NCBI GenBank assembly: GCA_945881915.1 | Contig: CAMCVW010000005.1 | Coordinates: 1 to 64,000 of the forward strand | Reading direction: 5' to 3' | Length of the DNA: 64,000 bases | From: Thermoflexus hugenholtzii JAD2 | Lineage (GTDB): Bacteria; Chloroflexota; Chloroflexia; Chloroflexales; Roseiflexaceae | Shown: piece by piece, positions 7,707 to 48,472 of the stretch | Layout: every line of letters starts with the position of its first letter | Numbering within the stretch: position 1 is the first letter of the stretch | The notes under the pieces: model-generated | What the model was told of the DNA's origin: nothing | Database searches by the model: none | The model's input: only the letters and a program-made list of their open reading frames with translations | Program-made: the position numbers and the translations under genes

Positions 7707-8936
7707 CTACCAGCGGACGAGCACCGAACGCGCGCCTCGGAACGATGTATTCGGGAGATATTCCAATTGCTGTCCCGCCACCAACTGTGCCCCGGGCAAC
7801 GCCGCAATCAGCTGCTGCAGCACAATCTGCGCTTCGAGCCGTGCCAGCGGCGCGCCGATACAATAGTGCGCACCGTACCCGAACGAGAGGTGTTCTCGGG
7901 CAGCCGCACGCGCCGGATTATACTCACCTGGCACCGCAAAATGTTCGGCATCGTGATTGGCCGCGCCGATGAGCGCCAGGATATTACTTCCCGCCGGAAT
8001 GTCTTGCCCGCCCAGTGTCACCGCAGCGGTAGTCACACGCCGCATCGCAATGACCGAAGTATCGAGTCGCAGTAGTTCTTCGACAGCTGCCGGAATCAGC
8101 GCCGGGTCAGCTGCCAACGCCTGCCAGCGTGTCGGGGCAGACAAGAGCTGCACAATTGCATTGGTCAAGAATCCCGTCGTCGTCTCGTGCCCTGCCAGCA
8201 ATAGCCCAAAGACGACGCTGGTAATCTCGCCCATCGTGAGCACTGCGTCGTCGCCGTTGCGCAGCCGAATCAAATCGCTGGTGTAGTCGTCTTGTGGCGC
8301 GAGCCGGCGTTTTTCCACAAATGCCACTGCCCGTTGCCAAAAATCCACCATGTCGTGCGCCAGGGCGACCTGCTGCTCATCGGTCGGTTTGCCCCAGGTG
8401 AAGAGCACGCGGCTCTCAGACCCGGCTTTGATGGCCGGCACATCCTCTGCATCCATCCCGATCAGCAGGAATATCACCTCTGCCGGCAAGCCGTATGTCA
8501 GTGCCGCCACGATATCCACCTGCCGTTCCGCAACGGCGATGATATCATGGACGTAGCGCGCGACCAAGGCGCCGATGCGTGGGGCCAGCGTCGCTATGCG
8601 CTGCGGGGTAAAAGCTGCCGCCACCTGCCGGCGCACCCGTGGATGTACCGGTGCATCGGCGTTCAGCAACACCCGCTGCATCGCATACCCGCCCGCACGA
8701 AACACCGCTGCAGTCTCGGTTGTCACCGGCGTGAAGGGATCAGTCGCGTTGCGCGATGCATAGGTCACCGCATCACGCAGGACGCGTTTGATGTCGTCGT
8801 ATCCGGTCAGCACCCAATACCCCAAAGCCGCACTATAAAACACCCGTTGTTCAGCATGTGCCTGCGCATAGAGCGCATACGGGTCAGTCAAATACTCCGC
8901 AGAAAATGGATCAAAGGCATCCAGCGGGCAACGCAT
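7707..8936 (-). CDS. Cytochrome P450
   Basis: A 409-aa soluble bacterial P450 monooxygenase. The I-helix motif LLAGHETTTGFL provides the acid/threonine pair for oxygen activation, ExxR is in VEELLRLD with the partner region downstream, and the heme-thiolate loop reads LSFGYGAHYCIGAPLARLE. There is no membrane anchor. The ATG at 8936 has AAGGATGC upstream and gives the usual length. It lies 14 bp upstream of the GH3 start on the same strand, so the two may form an operon. No ferredoxin or reductase gene is adjacent, so the redox partner is elsewhere. The substrate is unknown. Confidence 0.9.
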   Translation of the reverse strand: MRCPLDAFDPFSAEYLTDPYALYAQAHAEQRVFYSAALGYWVLTGYDDIKRVLRDAVTYASRNATDPFTPVTTETAAVFRAGGYAMQRVLLNADAPVHPRVRRQVAAAFTPQRIATLAPRIGALVARYVHDIIAVAERQVDIVAALTYGLPAEVIFLLIGMDAEDVPAIKAGSESRVLFTWGKPTDEQQVALAHDMVDFWQRAVAFVEKRRLAPQDDYTSDLIRLRNGDDAVLTMGEITSVVFGLLLAGHETTTGFLTNAIVQLLSAPTRWQALAADPALIPAAVEELLRLDTSVIAMRRVTTAAVTLGGQDIPAGSNILALIGAANHDAEHFAVPGEYNPARAAAREHLSFGYGAHYCIGAPLARLEAQIVLQQLIAALPGAQLVAGQQLEYLPNTSFRGARSVLVRW

Positions 8937-9017
8937 ATGCGCATCCTTGTATTGTTTCGCTTCTCCGGTCGGTGGCGCTAGTATAGCATTGCACGTATCG
9001 GGGTGAAAGAGGTTTGC

Positions 9018-12000
9018 GTGACCATCACAAACGAACGGTTCGAAGTCTTGCGCGATGCAAACGGCACCATTCCCGTCAGCGCAACCGATATCGCCCAATA
9101 CCAGCGTTCGCATCGCTGTGCGCGTGCGCTGCGGCTCCGTCTGTTTGCCCAAACCGCCGGCGAACAAACCCTCCACGCCCGTCTGCGCCGCCTCGGCATT
9201 GCGGTCGAACATCCCAGTCCCTACCCACTGGCGGCTGGCCGCGCCTACGAGGCGCATATCAATGCCGTCCTCAGCGCACAGCACCCCACTCTGGCAGCCA
9301 CCGACGAAGCACCGCTCGACGGCACCGCAGTGCTCAATGCATTGACAACACTCACTCCCGGCAGCAGCATCTTGCTGCTCCAACCCGCACTCCACGCCAC
9401 GGTCGATCCATGGCTCCTCACCGGCCGACCCGACCTCATGCTCCTCAGTCGGTCTCCCAATGGCGCTCTGACTATTCGCATTGCAGATATCAAATCCGCC
9501 CGTGCCGCTTCCTACGACCATCACATCCAAGTCGGGTTATACGAACGCATCTGTCGTGAATTATTCGCCGATACCCCAGCGCTCACCATGCACACCGCGG
9601 TCCTCTACCAGCCCCCACTCATCCCTGCCTGCGACGCACGCGAACGCGCGCTGTACGAGCAAGATGCCACTCGCGCGCACACCTGGTTCGGAATCGACAC
9701 CGCCTGGTGTGCCGTGCCCCCCAATCCCGATCAGCTCCGCAGCGATATCGCCCGCATCACCGCCCAACTCCCGCATGCCGATGCCTACGCGGCCTGCAAT
9801 ACCCCGTTCGAAGAACTCTCCTACGCTCTTTCGCCAGCCTGCAGCAGTTGTCCATACATGCAACTGTGTCTGCTGCGCGCCCACGAACAAGCCGATATTG
9901 CCCTCATTCCTGGCCTCGATCGCGAGCAGCGCACTGCCTTCCGCCAGCACGGCATCCGCACCGTCCCGCAACTCGCTGGAATGGCAACGGTCAGCCCCGA
10001 GCGCACACTCGTGCCCGTCCAGGCCATCAGCCCAGCCGTCATCTCTGATCAGACCATCGGACCAGACCTCGAAGAGTGGATTGCCCGCGCCCAGCGCCAA
10101 CGCAGCTCCGGCGTTGCCACGGCAGCATTCCTCCCTACCGCCTTCGTCGCCACGTTGCCGCGCATCACGTCACACACCAACCCAAACGTCTGCGTCCTCA
10201 CCATTGAGCCCCACAGCGACGGCGGCAGTGGGCTTTTGTGGTGCATCGCCCTGCGCATCCAACGGCATGACGCAGGTGTCGCCGCGGCGACCCACAGCCA
10301 TGTCGATCTGCTCGATGCGCCACCGACGTTGACCAGTGAAGGGCATCTCATCCAACGCCTCTGCCAGGCGTTGACGCAACAGTTGAGCAGCGATACCTTG
10401 CCTCCCATCCACTGTATCGTCTACGCACAGGCGCATTGGGATATGTTGTGTGCCGCCATTAATCGCCATCTCGACCGTTCGGTCGCAGTACGTACCTGGG
10501 CCGATGTGCTCATGCAACCGCGTACTGCCCAGGTCCCCATCTGCACGGTCGTCAGTACCGAACTCGACGCACACAACGCCGCCAATCTGCCCGTCACCAA
10601 TCTCCCCATTGCGGCGCGCCAATATGCGTTCGAATGGGCGACCAGCGATGACTTCCCGAAGCTCTTTCATACCGGATTGTTCGATACCTTCGGCCCGCGC
10701 ATCGGTACAACGCCTGCGCTCCAAATCCGCGCGCGCTACCACGACAGTATTCCGTCCGAGTACTCCGCTGCCGCATGGGAACTCCTCCCGCCCCCCAGTG
10801 ACGGGCAGGATGTCTATGCGCCTTTTCGCGTGGTCACGCTGCCGCTGTTACGGCGTTTCGTCGCGCATCGGCTCGCCGCAGTGACGCATCTGGCTAGCAA
10901 AGCCTGTCGTTGGACCAATCCCGCAATCATTCCAGCCCCCCCGACCGAATGCGGCAATCAGCCGACCTTCATCGCTGCCCTCAGTGACAGTCTGGTGCTC
11001 GAGCGCGCCGCGGTCCAATCAGAGTGGTATCGTATGCATCTGCCCCACCCGGCAGCGCGCGTGCGCAGTGGCACGACACTCATCGCCACCTACACTGACG
11101 CGCTCCAACCCCCTGCCATGGCCGACCGCATCGCCGCTTACAAGGGTGCTGCAGGTGCCCGCATTCCCAATCTCACCACCTGTACCTTCACTTTCGGCGT
11201 CACAACGGACGGTATGCTGCCGCCTTTGGCCACGCAACGCGCATTGTCCAGTCTGCTGGCTGTCGGCGCTGAGGTCATTTTGGCTGCTATGCTAGCAGAC
11301 CCGCTTACTCCTCAGCATCCCCATGCACTGGCACGTACCGGGATGCGCGGTCGTGTCAGTGCGGTCACCATCGAGGCCGACGGCGGTGCCACGCTCACAT
11401 TCCAACCCACCTACAGCCAACATCGGTCCCCCTACAGCGCCCGCGGCGACACCTTCTTCCCCCAAGAAGGCGTTTCATATACCATCGACGCGAGTCCCGA
11501 TAATCTGCCTAGTATCTACACCGACCAGGCGGTCCAACGCCTGGCCGCAGACCCCACTGCCAATACCCTCGCCCAGCTCTTGGCACAGCCAGCAAATCCC
11601 CGAGCAACCGGCTTGACCGCAGGGATTCATTCGTATGTCGCCGCATGTGCCACTACGGACGTGGTCCGCTTCGGCCCCGATGCCCACGCCTATGTGGGCA
11701 ATCACGCCGATACCCCGTTGCTCCTCGTCCAAGGACCGCCCGGCACCGGCAAAACCTTCACCACCGCCCACGCCATCCTGGCCCGCATCAGCGCTGCTGC
11801 TGCCCGCCAGCAACCCTTGCATATCGCCGTCACCGCCCAAACCCACGCCGCCGTCGATGCCCTCATCGGCGCGCTCTCCGACGTCATCGGAACGCTCCTC
11901 ATGGCCCACCATCCCGCCCAAGTGGCACTCGCCCAGCTCCGCCTGGTGCGTTACCGCGGCAACGCCCATACTCCCGCTCTGGCACAGGTCATCGGCATGC

Positions 12001-30066: not shown

Positions 30067-31986
30067 TTACTTACTGAAGATGTACTGCGACCAATCAACG
30101 GTAGACATCGGGGCGACTATCTGTGCATCTTGGGCCCAGAGGAACCAGTTATCGACAAGCGTTCCGCTGATCAAGATACCAATCCCGCCGGTAATCCCAC
30201 ACAGCATTGCGAACCACCACGCCCACAAGTGAATGTTGTACGAGTTTGCGTTGAATCCCATCGTCCACCGCCAAAATAGCTGCGCACGGTGTGTTCCGGA
30301 ACCTTCGACCAGCATTTCATCGATTTCGCGTTCTCCGCCCCACTTCGATACCGCCAAGATGGTCGATCCATGAATGGCCAGCACCAGGGTCGAACCCAGC
30401 AGAAAGAATATCGAAATCATGTGGAACGGATCGTAATAGATGTTCCCGACCTGTATGTTGACGTAGTTGGTCCAGTCCAACACCGCTCGGAAGCCATGAC
30501 CGGGGGCGTCAGCCCAGAATCCACGCAGCATCGGGCGGAACAGGTATATCGAGAAGAAGAGGAAGAGTGCTCCCCAGAACCCGACTGCCAAATGTGGTGC
30601 GAGACCAGTCTTGGTTGCGCGTTCCCACAGTCGTGCTGCCCATGCGAGAACCGATATGAACAAGAACAGTGTCGCGACGAGGTAGTCACCGCCGTCATAC
30701 CAGGGCACATTCCATGACATGCCATAGGAGGCTGCAGGCGGCATCACGGCAAGGTTCCAGAGTTCGCGTAGAAAATTGATTGGAGCATTGCCGACTTCAT
30801 GCAACATGCTGGTCAGAATAATCATGAAGGTGCCAAACATCGCGGCAGTACCAACCAGACCCCATGTGCCGAGGAAAATCGGAAGCACTTGACCCATTCC
30901 AAAGATGCGCTTCATCAATGGGACTTCGATGGGATACCCCAGATTTCCCTCCAACCCACGACCATTTGCTTCTTTATCAAGGTCGATGGGAGGAGCGTTT
31001 TTGTCGGCACGCTTCGAAAAAACCAGACCGGCGCCGATAAGGACGATGCCCGCACCCGTTCCACTCCAGATGGGCATGCGGTCCCAGAATGACCAGAAGG
31101 CATTCCAGTCTTTGACCAGCGGACCCGAAACAAAGATACAAACGTTGGCAAAGAGAACCGATGCTGCACCAGACCAGTACGCGAGGCGATGGATGCCAAT
31201 TTCTCCGATGGAATATCCGACAATGTTCCGCCAGTAGACGTCTACATTGTGTTCGGTGACGGGGCGACGCGCAGCACTCAAAATCGCCGATCCGTGCATA
31301 TGCAAAAACAGCGTCGAGCCAAAGAGCAACGTGACGCCAATGGCATGGAATGGATTGTAAAAGAAGTTGTAGTACTGATAGCCAATGTTTGCCAACCAGT
31401 CAAGATGGTGAGTAATCCCCAGTGGGAAGCCGTTGCCCCATGCACCCATTGCAATCGGGCGCAGAATCTGCAACGTGACCCACGAAGACACCACCGCACC
31501 AAAGGCGATTGGTATTTCGTAGCTCATGCCCAGCTTTCGGCTGATATCGACCTGACGGATCATCCAGCCGACGAATGCGACCGTTGCCCAGCCGACAGTC
31601 CATTGCCAAGCGAACCCAGGCGCGCCCCATTGGACAATCTGCAATCCTGCACTAATCGGTGGTGGCTCGAGTGCCGTTGCGAGCGGGTTGAAGCTCGACT
31701 CCAAGAAAAACACTTGGTAGAAGTATCCAAGAGTCCCCATGACGGCACCCAGTAACGATATGCCACCAAAAAAACCGACATAAAATGGACCTATCCAGAA
31801 GTCCAGTGGGTCTTGCCCAAACATCTTCTCGGCTAGTGTTCCACCCTGGCGCTTATAGTGCGCTTCCATTTCTTCGAACGTAATCACGGCGGCGCGTGGG
31901 CCTGCGCCTGTCGTGCTCGCTGCAGCCATTGAAGCGCGATACTCACCATCGGGTTGCAACAGTGGCGTTTGTGGCGCATCAGACAT
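30067..31986 (-). CDS. pufLM: Fused type II reaction-centre L and M subunits (PufL-PufM)
   Basis: A 639-aa polypeptide carrying both core subunits in one frame. The L part (about 1-310) and M part (about 330-639) each have five transmembrane helices. The L half has YYNFFYNPFHAIGVTLLFGSTLFLHMHGSAIL and the M half YYDPFHMISIFFLLGSTLVLAIHGSTIL, each holding the histidine ligands to bacteriochlorophyll and iron. WGG-EREIDEM and the GTHRAQLFWRWTMGFN segment match the M-subunit quinone/iron region. Such a fusion is known from Roseiflexus-type phototrophs. The ATG at 31986 is favoured over the in-frame GTG at 31995, which has an upstream site too close. Confidence 0.95.
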   Translation of the reverse strand: MSDAPQTPLLQPDGEYRASMAAASTTGAGPRAAVITFEEMEAHYKRQGGTLAEKMFGQDPLDFWIGPFYVGFFGGISLLGAVMGTLGYFYQVFFLESSFNPLATALEPPPISAGLQIVQWGAPGFAWQWTVGWATVAFVGWMIRQVDISRKLGMSYEIPIAFGAVVSSWVTLQILRPIAMGAWGNGFPLGITHHLDWLANIGYQYYNFFYNPFHAIGVTLLFGSTLFLHMHGSAILSAARRPVTEHNVDVYWRNIVGYSIGEIGIHRLAYWSGAASVLFANVCIFVSGPLVKDWNAFWSFWDRMPIWSGTGAGIVLIGAGLVFSKRADKNAPPIDLDKEANGRGLEGNLGYPIEVPLMKRIFGMGQVLPIFLGTWGLVGTAAMFGTFMIILTSMLHEVGNAPINFLRELWNLAVMPPAASYGMSWNVPWYDGGDYLVATLFLFISVLAWAARLWERATKTGLAPHLAVGFWGALFLFFSIYLFRPMLRGFWADAPGHGFRAVLDWTNYVNIQVGNIYYDPFHMISIFFLLGSTLVLAIHGSTILAVSKWGGEREIDEMLVEGSGTHRAQLFWRWTMGFNANSYNIHLWAWWFAMLCGITGGIGILISGTLVDNWFLWAQDAQIVAPMSTVDWSQYIFSK

Positions 31987-32077
31987 CGCAGACACTCGCT
32001 TTCTAGCATGTGGTGCATCGCATATGAGATGCCAGTGCGCTCACCACGGGCTATTCCAAAAATAACTTATACGGAAG

Positions 32078-32110
32078 GCGCGGGTCGAACGGGTGTCGCT
32101 CGACCCGCGC
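32078..32110 (-). promoter_or_regulatory. pufA-pufLM intercistronic hairpin
   Basis: A perfect 11-bp stem (GCGCGGGTCGA with TCGACCCGCGC) has an 11-nt loop, lies 31 bp after the pufA stop, and has no T-run. It occupies the same place as the purple-bacterial pufA-pufL stem-loop that protects the antenna mRNA from decay and so raises the antenna-to-reaction-centre ratio. Confidence 0.75.
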
Positions 32111-32141
32111 GGTCTTTCCACCCTGTGGAAGAACGGTTGGA

Positions 32142-32279
32142 TTACTTACCGAGTGCGCCGAAGACCGAGCTGTAGTTGGCGGAGCTCAACACCACGAAGT
32201 GGTTCAAAAGCGCCATTACCACACCCAACAGGGTTACCAGGACGACTGCAGATCGGAATTCAATAGGTCGGTTTGGCAT
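32142..32279 (-). CDS. pufA: Light-harvesting antenna alpha polypeptide
   Basis: A 45-aa single-helix antenna protein. The sequence [22 protein letters not shown] contains the histidine (residue 27) that ligates bacteriochlorophyll, in the ALLxHFxVLSS context seen in Chloroflexales alpha chains. The polar N-terminus MPNRPIEFR is cytoplasmic. GAGGGAAG precedes the ATG. It follows pufB by 63 bp, giving the order B-A-LM-C. Confidence 0.93.
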
Positions 32280-32342
32280 ATGCTTCCCTCGTTTCTGCTC
32301 AGCGTCGATGAGGTACCTCATACAATCGCTGGCGTTAATTCT

Positions 32343-32501
32343 CTAGAACCAAGGCTTCCAGGACCACACCAAAAGGTGAGCTACGGTGGCGATCGCCAAA
32401 AATCCGTACATGGACTTGACGACGATACCATGTACCATCCACTCTTCATTGGTGAACAGTGACTTCCATTGTGCTGGAACCAAATCGTTTTGATTTGCCA
32501 T
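32343..32501 (-). CDS. pufB: Light-harvesting antenna beta polypeptide
   Basis: A 52-aa single-helix antenna protein and the first gene of the photosynthesis operon. It has the N-terminal amphipathic stretch [17 protein letters not shown] with the outer histidine (24), then the helix with the bacteriochlorophyll-ligating histidine (42) in [14 protein letters not shown], typical of beta chains. GGAGGGGGTGACAACA precedes the ATG. The 5' region is the 683-bp AT-rich interval shared with the divergent MerR/B12 regulator. Confidence 0.94.
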
Positions 32502-32813
32502 TGTTGTCACCCCCTCCCTTGCTTTTACTCTTGCGGTCTCCCGCTCGCGTGTCCTGCACTCCCAAATCCGTTCGTATCAGATGTCAAGAGTTATTTGCTG
32601 GACTTGCATGATTATATGTTCGCCACTTTGCCCCCGTCAACCGCCAAATACTACATATATCTTCGATTTTCGCTATGCAAATAGTGTACATGGCATGTTT
32701 TTTCGCGTTTTTGTAGTTCAGTCTTCTTATTTTCAGATTTGCTGCCCTACGCATCAGAATTCAACTTCTAAAATCTCGATTTTCGCATTCCATCCACTTT
32801 TGAGTATCGTCTC

Positions 32814-32832
32814 TGTACTACAAAATAGTACA
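32814..32832. promoter_or_regulatory. Perfect 19-bp dyad, candidate operator
   Basis: The arms TGTACTA and TAGTACA flank a 5-bp spacer, with an additional GTACTA half-site 24 bp downstream of the first. Dyads of this size suit a MerR-family dimer. It is close to, but not, the TGT-N12-ACA spacing of PpsR/CrtJ sites: the spacing here is 13. Confidence 0.6.
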
Positions 32833-33002
32833 CATTCCGTACTACGTTTTGCAAATTCCTCCGCTCGTTACTGGAGATGGAGCGCCTCGATGAGCAATTA
32901 TTCGTTTTCCTCATCTAAAATTAATGTTTGAGTGATCTTGCGCAAAATATTGCGACGAAACGCAAAAACTCTATACACATATGCGTGTTTGTGCTGTTTT
33001 TT

Positions 33003-33024
33003 ATTGTGCAAACATTGTGCAAAA
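33003..33024. repeat. Tandem 11-bp direct repeats upstream of the B12-type regulator
   Basis: ATTGTGCAAAC (33003-33013) and ATTGTGCAAAA (33014-33024) are adjacent copies differing only in the last base. A degenerate copy, CTAGTGCAAAT, lies at 33046-33056. CarH of Thermus is known to bind tandem 11-bp repeats, so this could be an autoregulatory operator. Confidence 0.6.
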
Positions 33025-33184
33025 TATGGCAATATTCAAACAAACCTAGTGCAAATGTGTGACAGTCCGGCGAGCCCAAGCATACCTTGACACCCATATT
33101 AGGATAGTCGTAGACGAACACCGAACAACACAGCCGCAGTCAAACCCAGCCAACTACACCAGTATTGGATCACGGAGGACGCGC

Positions 33185-34222
33185 ATGATCGACAAAATCC
33201 GACATTTACTGGCCTTCTCAGATACACCGCGATACAACATAAAAGCCGTGGTGCAGCAAACGCAAGTAAATGTATCTACCCTGCGTGCATGGGAACAGCG
33301 GTATGGAGTGCCGCAACCAAAGCGCACTGACCATGGGCATCGCCTCTATTCACAGCGTGATATCGAAGTCATCAAGTGGCTCAAACTTGCTACCGAAGAT
33401 GGAATTTCGATTAGTCAGGCAGTTGTCATGCTCCGCGAAGACCCGGAGGATGTCCAAAAGCCGGAAGTATCCGCCGAATATCTGCCCCCACGTACGACCA
33501 TCGCCGACGCAGGGTGGCCTGATTTACGCGCACAGCTTTTTGAAGCGTTAGTACAGGTCAATATTCGGCAGGCAAATGTATTGCTGAGTACAGCGATATC
33601 ACTCTTTCCGGTTGAGTCACTGGTCCATGATGTCATCCTCCCAATCATGAGTGATTTTTCGAAGCGCTGGGTCGATGGCACTGGCTGTATGGCGGTTGAG
33701 CAAATAGCCGTGCAGATTATCCGGCAACGGTTGACGAGTTTGCTGCAGATTCACGCGTCGTACTCCCATGGTCCACGGATGATTATTGGTTCTACGACTG
33801 ACGAACAGCACGACATCGGTGGACTCATCTATGCGCTCATGATGGAGCAAGAAGGTTGGGAAGTCCTGTACATGGGACCGAATCTCGGCATGACCGGGCT
33901 GGCAGATTTATTGGTGCGGTTGTCCCCTGCGGTGGTCGTCTTGACGGCAACGATGGTTGAGAACGTCGCTTCAATGCAGCAAATAGGGCAAATGGTCAAT
34001 GGATTACACCATCACGGTATTCATTTTGGGTATGCGGGCAGGGCATTTGTCCTCAATCCAGAACTCTGCCTGCGCATGCCAGGGACGTACATGGGCGACG
34101 ACTTCCGTAGCGCAGTACATTCTGCGGTCCAACTCAGTGATGAGTTCGGGATGGTTTCGGTAGGGCAAGCGGGCACGCGGCAACGCGAAGGAATTCCAAT
34201 GCGGACACGGTTGGGTCTGTAA
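33185..34222 (+). CDS. MerR-type regulator with cobalamin-binding domain (CarH/LitR-like)
   Basis: A 345-aa transcription factor. The N-terminal MerR helix-turn-helix (about 16-85) contains STLRAWEQRYGVPQPKRTDHGHRLYS. A helical bundle (about 108-195) and a B12-binding Rossmann domain (about 196-330) follow, with EQHDIGG carrying the histidine (209) that would be the lower cobalt ligand. The helical-bundle signature W-x9-EH of light-sensing CarH reads W162...E172-Q173 here, and the residue after the tryptophan is Val. It is probably a photoreceptor or cobalamin sensor acting on the divergent puf operon. GGAGG lies before the ATG at 33185; an upstream in-frame extension is rejected. Confidence 0.88.
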   Translation: MIDKIRHLLAFSDTPRYNIKAVVQQTQVNVSTLRAWEQRYGVPQPKRTDHGHRLYSQRDIEVIKWLKLATEDGISISQAVVMLREDPEDVQKPEVSAEYLPPRTTIADAGWPDLRAQLFEALVQVNIRQANVLLSTAISLFPVESLVHDVILPIMSDFSKRWVDGTGCMAVEQIAVQIIRQRLTSLLQIHASYSHGPRMIIGSTTDEQHDIGGLIYALMMEQEGWEVLYMGPNLGMTGLADLLVRLSPAVVVLTATMVENVASMQQIGQMVNGLHHHGIHFGYAGRAFVLNPELCLRMPGTYMGDDFRSAVHSAVQLSDEFGMVSVGQAGTRQREGIPMRTRLGL

Positions 34223-34246
34223 CGGGGAACACCACGAGGAGGATAC

Positions 34247-34684
34247 ATGCGCGCACTTGAAGGCTGGCTCAATAGTAGTGGGAATCGTGTCGCTGCTGAA
34301 CTCGACGAACGTGGCGAACAAATATGCAAGCTTGTCACCGAACAACTGAAAACGTCGTATAAAAAGATCTGTGTCGACCCAGGGAATCCCGAAAGCGACG
34401 AAATGCGCCTCCAGGCATATACGGAATCTCCCCGTCGCATGCATCGGATCGTGCAAGTCGCATTGCGTCTGCGTGCTGTCGAAGTCATCGAACGAGAATG
34501 CATCTGGACGCTGCAGATGCTGCCGCGCTACGGGGTTGTTCGCCAGAATATGCATGCAATGGTTCGTTGGTACTTCGAGGCAGCGCGCACATTGAGCAAT
34601 ATCGATTCCGCAGATCGTCGATCGCTGGACATCATCGAAGGACTATTCCTCACGGCTCTGTCGCGCCCTATTCCCACTCCCTAG
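34247..34684 (+). CDS. Hypothetical 145-aa protein downstream of the B12-type regulator
   Basis: I do not recognise a family. The protein looks almost entirely helical, is rich in Arg and Glu, has no membrane segment, and contains two cysteines (KKICVDPGN and RECIWTL). GAGGATAC precedes the ATG. It starts 24 bp after the regulator stop and is followed by a strong terminator, so the two genes form a bicistron opposite the photosynthesis operon. A role as a partner or antagonist of the regulator is possible from position only; helical sensory domains of comparable size exist in many families. Confidence 0.75.
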   Translation: MRALEGWLNSSGNRVAAELDERGEQICKLVTEQLKTSYKKICVDPGNPESDEMRLQAYTESPRRMHRIVQVALRLRAVEVIERECIWTLQMLPRYGVVRQNMHAMVRWYFEAARTLSNIDSADRRSLDIIEGLFLTALSRPIPTP

Positions 34685-47032: not shown

Positions 47033-48472
47033 TCAGGTCTGTATATCAGTCGCCGCAGCGCGAACGGCTTTATAGAGCTCCAACGCGCGTACGCGTTGGG
47101 TCGCATGGTCGACAATCGGTGCAGGATATGCCTCGCCGATTATACACCCGCAACTTCGTTGGAGTGCAACCGGCATATTCCACGGCGCATGGATGTACTT
47201 TGCCGGTACGTTTATCAACGCAGGGATGTATTTTTTTACATACGCACCGTCTGGATCGAAGCGCTCACCCTGGCTACTGGGATTAAAGATACGAAAATAT
47301 GGCTGTGCATCGGTGCCCGTCCCCGCAGCCCACTGCCAGCCACCGTTGTTCGAAGCTGTATCGCCGTCGAGCAGGTGTTGCATAAAGAACTGCTCGCCCC
47401 AGCGCCAGTCAATCAGCAGGTCTTTGGTGAGGAACGAGGACGTGACCATGCGCGCGCGATTGTGCATCCACCCTGTCGAAACAAGTTGGCGCATGGCTGC
47501 GTCGACAATCGGGTAGCCGGTCGTTCCCGTGCACCAGGCTTCATACAACGCGGGATTGTTTTCCCATGCAATACCGTCGTATTGTGGCCGGAATGCGCCC
47601 GTGAGGACGTGGGGGAAGTGGGCGCTGATATGGGTATAAAAATCCCGCCAGGCGAGTTCACTCAGCCAGACTTCACCGCCTGAACGACTGTCCGACGGTG
47701 TCGCCTGTGCATCGGCTTGCCACGCCAACCGCGTGCACGATTGTACCGACACGATACCGAAGCGCAGGTACGGCGACAGCATACTTGTGCCCGCCTGCGC
47801 CAGCATGTCGCGACCGCTGTTGTACTGCGCGATGGCACGTTGCCCAAATCGCTCCAGTAGACGCGCCGCATATGCTGCGCTCGTATCAGGAATGGCAATG
47901 GGTGAAGCTGGCCATGTGGGGAATACCGGATCCGGTCGCGTCTGCGGAGTTGCGACGAATTGCGGTGTAGGAAGCGGATCTGCCAACCGGAGTTCAGCAC
48001 GCCATCGTCGATAAAACGGCGTAAACACCGTGTACGGTGTGCCTGTACCGGAACGGATACGGTCCACCGGCACGAGAATTTGGGTGTCACTGGTGTGGAC
48101 CGGGATTCCCATGTGCGCGAGTGCTGCGGTGACACTCCGGTCGCGCGCTTTGCCCCACGGCGTGGGATCAGACTGCCAGCTCACCGCCTGGACTCCATGT
48201 GTCTGTGCATACTCCGGGATGATCGTGCGTGGGTCACCGTAGAGAATGACCAATCCACTCCCTGCCGCCTGTAATTCTGCGTGTAAAGTCGTCAAGCGGT
48301 GGTGTAAAAATGCTAATCGTTGGGCGCCGACCCGCTTGGAGTGGACCAGCATGGGATCGACCACAAAGACCGCAATCACCTGCCCTGCAGCGCGCGTACA
48401 CGCGTCCGATAGGGCGGAATTATCATGGAGGCGTAGGTCACGCCGGAACCAGTGAAGTATCGGCTGGGCCAT
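47033..48472 (-). CDS. phr: Class I CPD-type deoxyribodipyrimidine photolyase
   Basis: A 479-aa light-dependent DNA repair flavoprotein. The N-terminal antenna domain starts PILHWFRRDLRLHDNSAL. The FAD-binding domain contains LAWRDFYTHIS, GYPIVDAAMRQLVSTGWMHNRARMVTSSFLTKDLLIDWRWGEQ, and NNGGWQWAAGTGTDAQPYFRIFNP, including the tryptophans of the electron-transfer chain and the active-site Asn/Glu region. It uses blue light to split cyclobutane pyrimidine dimers, which suits a light-exposed phototroph. A cryptochrome role cannot be excluded. Confidence 0.94.
   Translation of the reverse strand: MAQPILHWFRRDLRLHDNSALSDACTRAAGQVIAVFVVDPMLVHSKRVGAQRLAFLHHRLTTLHAELQAAGSGLVILYGDPRTIIPEYAQTHGVQAVSWQSDPTPWGKARDRSVTAALAHMGIPVHTSDTQILVPVDRIRSGTGTPYTVFTPFYRRWRAELRLADPLPTPQFVATPQTRPDPVFPTWPASPIAIPDTSAAYAARLLERFGQRAIAQYNSGRDMLAQAGTSMLSPYLRFGIVSVQSCTRLAWQADAQATPSDSRSGGEVWLSELAWRDFYTHISAHFPHVLTGAFRPQYDGIAWENNPALYEAWCTGTTGYPIVDAAMRQLVSTGWMHNRARMVTSSFLTKDLLIDWRWGEQFFMQHLLDGDTASNNGGWQWAAGTGTDAQPYFRIFNPSSQGERFDPDGAYVKKYIPALINVPAKYIHAPWNMPVALQRSCGCIIGEAYPAPIVDHATQRVRALELYKAVRAAATDIQT

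Follow-up and report, generated by a model that had tools for sequence, protein, structure and literature searches.

The window, that is the whole stretch of 64,000 nucleotides that was analysed, carries a run of photosynthesis genes on its minus strand, in which pufBA is followed by the fused pufLM, pufC, bchG, bchF, bchC, bchX and further bch genes, all running away from a divergently oriented regulator gene that is separated from the start of pufB (position 32501) by a gap of 683 bp (Table 1). A second, smaller gene, ORF145, starts 25 bp past the stop codon of the regulator. The initial annotation described a protein with a MerR-type HTH and a cobalamin domain, with a lower-ligand histidine in the motif EQHDIGG, facing pufB, and this is confirmed by domain matches, residues and coordinates; in the translated ORF, W162, V163, E172-Q173 and H209 stand exactly as they had been read. 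Absent from that annotation were ORF145, a second CarH copy elsewhere in the genome, and the operator repeats. A DNA photolyase family protein is encoded about 13 kb from the regulator (window positions 47033-48472, minus strand).

Table 1. Genes and predicted regulatory elements around the puf-regulator gap (window positions).
Feature	Position	Strand	Remarks
Fused pufLM reaction centre	30067..31995	-	
pufA (LH alpha)	32142..32279	-	
pufB (LH beta)	32343..32501	-	First gene of the puf-bch run
Predicted puf promoter, TTGACG-N18-TATAAT	32611..32640	-	Predicted start near 32603; conserved in 16/16 loci
TACTACATATAT	32649..32660		Just upstream of the puf -35; conserved in closest relatives
Candidate operator, two tandem 11-bp repeats (TATGCAAATAG TGTACA on +)	32669..32690		Starts at -87 of the puf start
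TGTACTACAAAATAGTACACATTCCGTACTAC, possible second operator	32814..32845		Conserved in own genus
TTGTGCAAACA TTGTGCAAAAT ATGGCAA, 11-bp-spaced repeats	33004..33032		Upstream of the regulator promoter; close relatives
Predicted regulator promoter, TTGACA-N18-TAGACG	33087..33116	+	Conserved in close relatives
CarH-derived regulator (clade A), 345 aa	33185..34222	+	Domain, fold, residue and tree evidence; MerR HTH at residues 17-85, four-helix bundle and Rossmann cobalamin domain at about 110-320, lower-ligand H209
ORF145, 145 aa, predicted globin/phycobiliprotein-like fold	34247..34684	+	Probably co-transcribed with the regulator

The regulator matches the MerR_1 family with an E-value of 6e-15 and the B12-binding family with an E-value of 1.5e-7, the latter just below its cut-off, and TtCarH is among its best sequence matches in the PDB (E-value of 6e-30). 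Its predicted model is closest to the cobalamin domains of solved CarH and photocobilin structures, with Z-scores of 20.8-19.0 over about 200 residues, where matches within one Z unit of each other count as tied. The CarH equivalog is also its best family in NCBIfam, but with 143 bits against a cut-off of 400. The lower-ligand motif D/ExHx2G is present (E207-Q-H209-x2-G212), with TAT at the SxT/V position and AG in place of GG, and, judging from these residues, the protein should hold cobalamin through H209. The same genome encodes a cobalamin adenosyltransferase.

In our tree, the CarH-like sequences include two well-supported clades, A (puf type, 100% support) and B (98%). Clade A, to which the window regulator belongs, is CarH-derived and specific to phototrophic Chloroflexales, and nearly all genomes with a clade-A copy hold a second CarH-like gene. 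In the window genome this is a canonical clade-B CarH adjoining crtB, and clade-B genes adjoin phytoene synthase genes in Roseiflexus and Chloroflexus as well. Tree, HTH identity and fold thus bear out the CarH ancestry that had been proposed for the regulator. At the residue level, clade B is canonical in 20 of 20 sequences (Trp-His...Glu-His, lower His and the proline of GxxxP). Clade A retains the Trp (W131 in TtCarH numbering) and the lower His (H177) in all 22 members, and the upper-ligand His (H132) and the GxxxP proline in none. Its EH pair is retained in some lineages (Kouleothrix, some of the G058-G060 copies, and G051), and is replaced by ER in Roseiflexus, EQ in the window protein and VQ in three sister genomes (L006-L008). 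A Cys is found six positions after the Trp (Cys168 in the window protein) in the window's own genus, in Roseiflexus, and in those G058/G060 copies that are linked to puf or ORF145.

What sets CarH apart from CarA, which is B12-independent, is an intact Wx9EH motif, called crucial for photoreceptor activity (PMC9304148), and light-responsive cobalamin domains have been described by the signature GxxW, EH, GxxH and GxxxP, obtained by screening for signatures and testing exemplar proteins experimentally (PMC11796333). In the window regulator, Wx9EH is broken (W162, nine residues, E172-Q173), Val163 occupies the position of H132, and all four signature elements are lacking, the residues that decide them being S, Q, D and G. 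The altered upper face noticed in the initial annotation is hence real and broader than described there, as H132, EH and the GxxxP proline are all gone and GxxW and GxxH have changed too. The direct light switch on puf/bch that it went on to propose is not supported under either the Wx9EH (PMC9304148) or the four-element definition (PMC11796333); its alternative, sensing of B12 or redox, may still apply. With the upper-ligand His and the GxxxP proline missing across clade A and EH lost in the window's own lineage, a CarH-type light switch is unlikely in this regulator. A modified light response may nevertheless exist, above all in Kouleothrix, because EH is kept in several clade-A members outside the genus and the loss of H132 alone is compatible with photochemistry: a His at 132 is not required for the light signature, and CtMerR has an Arg there yet works (PMC11796333). 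In TtCarH, removal of H132 blocks monomer formation (PMC10442372). By sequence criteria, the window regulator is a member of the CarH lineage and not a CarH photoreceptor. Possible further B12 light sensors were seen in Chloroflexaceae and in G062 (L148-L160 and L120), as proteins of roughly 670-810 aa, some fragments being shorter, with a long N-terminal part that by eye is DICT/GAF-like and a C-terminal cobalamin domain with an intact GEGWHRGEVSVAAEHF-type motif; no globin fusions were seen by eye in the large Chloroflexaceae cobalamin-domain proteins.

CarH operators consist of repeats of 11 bp arranged in tandem, whose core is TnnACA (PMC9304148); we relaxed this core to TnnRCA after inspecting the data, with clade B giving independent support for TGTGCA. 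Using this motif, 2-4 tandem repeats begin at -87/-86 of the predicted puf start in 16 of the 16 gaps examined, in all of which the puf promoter is conserved as TTGACN-N17/18-YATAAT. Since this start is fixed although the gaps span 470-1252 bp, the register of the repeats is that of puf and not of the regulator gene, which makes targeting of this DNA well supported and supports the earlier suggestion that the regulator acts on puf. Arrays were observed in 4 of 6 lineages, and shuffled gaps never gave more than one lineage in 2000 shuffles. The fetched loci hold 77 promoter-like sites, of which 55 show the repeat layout, and all of these 55 are the puf site in overlapping loci. The regulon was searched by genome-wide sequence patterns only: the three-repeat pattern has the puf gap as its sole match in six genomes, five of Roseiflexus and one of a close relative (G061, G065, G066, G068, G069 and G070), the reversed-pattern control had 0 hits in 26 genomes, and strict three-repeat patterns had no match in the window genome, whose gap has two clear repeats out of four, with degenerate sequence where the remaining two would lie. 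By pattern search, the possible second operator is unique to the puf gap across five genomes of the window's own genus. Comparable repeat arrays were not found in Chloroflexaceae puf upstream regions, nor was a riboswitch found by Rfam over positions 32000-34300. Within the order, 11 clade-B promoters share the layout TGTGCA-N5-TTGACA-N5-TGTGCR, in which the -35 box takes the place of the middle repeat; unlike these, the puf array lies upstream of the -35, which favours activation or upstream control over simple blocking, so that activation of puf by the clade-A regulator is slightly favoured over repression.

Related repeats were also observed at other sites. In G062, which is without clade A, a tandem array of four 11-bp repeats that can be read on either strand lies about 800 bp upstream of pufC (L111:6874-6914), and the canonical CarH of this genome may act on puf genes. 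In G057, likewise without clade A, the puf promoter is accompanied by a pair of 11-bp repeats of opposite orientation (L057:6012-6560). Within the window's own genus, a three-repeat CarH-type array lies upstream of a polyprenyl synthetase gene (L114, L115 and L116), where the canonical CarH might act on the supply of carotenoid precursors, and in G081 a three-repeat array adjoins an Mg-chelatase-like AAA/VWA gene (L117:7198; bchD-like), possibly a bch target.

The order pufLM-pufA-pufB, regulator, ORF145 recurs in the window's own freshwater genus, in Roseiflexus and in Kouleothrix, which indicates that the arrangement is not due to chance; one member of another family likewise has the regulator divergent from pufLM. 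ORF145 is found behind the regulator in almost every locus. Within the order, its family is found in 54 of 63 genomes with pufLM against 1 of 19 without, the latter being broken at a contig end (Fisher p 1.3e-10), and phylum-wide in 20 of 301 genomes, all of them phototrophic Chloroflexales. ORF145 has no Pfam family, including no match to Phycobilisome, and no match among PDB sequences. Its predicted model (pLDDT 88) best matches phycobiliproteins and smURFP (Foldseek probability 1.00, TM about 0.7), with Z-scores against phycobiliproteins of up to 16.3, where unrelated helical folds can reach about 13. A profile-profile comparison with six phycobiliproteins (three of them taken from PDB hits) was not significant, and heme oxygenase (PF01126) was not found in the window's own genus, Roseiflexus or Chloroflexus. 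On these grounds, a bilin-binding function for ORF145, appealing by fold, was retained only within the two-gene switch considered below. A Chloroflexus relative of ORF145 is convergent with a cupredoxin gene resembling auracyanin (L052:8190-8633 and 8692-9186), and in G051 a relative adjoins Mg-chelatase-like genes.

With moderate confidence, we interpret the window protein as a CarH paralogue that binds cobalamin, is uncoupled from light, controls puf and shares its input with ORF145. Points against this interpretation include the presence of puf genes without a clade-A copy in G057 and G062, and of extra clade-A copies away from puf in G058-G060, as well as the two degenerate repeat positions in the window, the relaxation of the repeat motif after inspection of the data, and the possibility of a modified light response. 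Clade-A regulators not at puf, some with EH retained, were seen at L087, L089 and L090.

A canonical CarH-like photoreceptor, whose AdoCbl-bound oligomer would occupy the puf gap in the dark and be released by green light, with an altered upper-face chemistry, appears improbable. The regulator resembles the CarH of Thermus thermophilus, Bacillus megaterium and Myxococcus in its MerR-type HTH, its four-helix bundle and Rossmann cobalamin domain, here in the same fold and domain order as TtCarH, its tandem 11-bp operator repeats, and an invariant capping Trp and lower His; EH survives in Kouleothrix, some G058-G060 copies and G051, and CtMerR functions without H132 (PMC11796333). It differs from them in its missing upper-ligand His, in a GxxxP proline lost in 22 of 22 clade-A members, in the breakage of the Wx9EH motif, on which CarH photoreceptor activity is said to depend critically (PMC9304148), with EQ or VQ in its own genus and ER in Roseiflexus, and in an operator that lies upstream of, and not over, the -35 of puf instead of a crt target. 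The retention of the lower His and the Trp alongside the loss of the adenosyl pocket would fit a sensor of cobalamin supply or redox state, in which a non-adenosyl cobalamin on H209 would report B12 status or, via Cys168 nearby, redox state; we regard this as a serious, if fairly unlikely, possibility. The Cys is shared by the window's own genus, Roseiflexus and the puf- or ORF145-linked G058/G060 copies, but is missing in Kouleothrix. A precedent exists in purple bacteria, where photosystem genes are controlled by AerR, a protein that binds hydroxocobalamin (PMC9144470): like the window regulator, AerR/PpaA has a CarH-like cobalamin domain and is encoded beside photosystem genes, on which it acts as the window regulator is proposed to do, but it is without a DNA-binding domain and works through CrtJ/PpsR, whereas the window regulator has a fused MerR HTH.

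The signal could also enter through ORF145, with cobalamin structural or dispensable as in CarA, a case that we judge unlikely. There is a parallel with Myxococcus xanthus, in that CarA is a CarH paralogue with an impaired adenosyl pocket (a broken Wx9EH) and a retained B12 motif that coexists with a true CarH (PMC9304148), and the partner gene has the constant position and the restriction to phototrophic Chloroflexales noted above. CarA, however, lost the Trp and kept EH, whereas the window regulator shows the reverse, with the Trp kept and the His of the pair lost; its probable targets are photosystem genes, its neighbour is predicted to be globin-like, and the strictly kept lower His argues for bound cobalamin. 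A two-gene photocobilin-like switch, with photosystem expression set by coupling between a ligand carried by the globin side, for instance a tetrapyrrole, and the cobalamin of the DNA-bound regulator, is conceivable because photocobilins fuse a CarH-like domain to a biliverdin-binding globin (PMC10979010) and stand-alone bilin globins (BBAG-2) occur next to B12 proteins (PMC10151467). The window pair resembles them in the CarH-like cobalamin domain and in the predicted fold of ORF145, which matches phycobiliproteins, but is encoded by separate genes, with no PF01126 found in the window's own genus, Roseiflexus or Chloroflexus and no link found at the sequence level, and we consider such a switch highly doubtful. 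We give equally little weight to the idea that the regulator controls only itself and ORF145, its adjacency to puf being incidental: repeats do occur upstream of the regulator promoter in the window's own genus, but the distance of the array to the puf promoter is fixed, that to the regulator varies by hundreds of bases, and synteny is maintained across genera.

For the preferred interpretation, a light-uncoupled paralogue, we propose the following history, drawing on the homology, paralogy, residue losses, operator repeats and their register, synteny and partner distribution computed here. An ancestral CarH would have been duplicated in phototrophic Chloroflexales, with the clade-B copy staying at crtB as a canonical AdoCbl-type CarH, whose operator repeats contain the -35 of its own promoter, and the clade-A copy, represented by the window protein, being recruited to the puf promoter. 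The latter appears to have kept the DNA-reading head of CarH, its code of 11-bp repeats, and the lower His and capping Trp that serve base-off/His-on cobalamin binding, and to have lost the adenosyl pocket and the interface residues through which photolysis acts on the oligomeric state. The regulator, most likely bound to cobalamin, would sit directly on the tandem repeats, which in the puf promoter run from -87 to about -44, and control puf transcription from upstream, probably by activation. Its input would more likely be cobalamin supply, or a ligand or redox state, together with ORF145, than CarH-type photolysis by green light.

No transcription factors for photosynthesis genes are as yet known from filamentous anoxygenic phototrophs, and neither Chloroflexus nor Roseiflexus castenholzii yielded a PpsR homologue (PMC7308566), which agrees with the initial annotation's mention of a lineage without PpsR. 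The locus described here supplies a candidate photosynthesis regulator, its probable operator, placed to the base and with its spacing defined, and a likely partner, in a family to which the genus Roseiflexus, with cultured members, belongs. The question of photosynthesis regulation in these bacteria becomes directly testable. It would also provide, beside CarA, a second, independent case of a CarH duplicate apparently without light coupling, here recruited to the photosystem itself.
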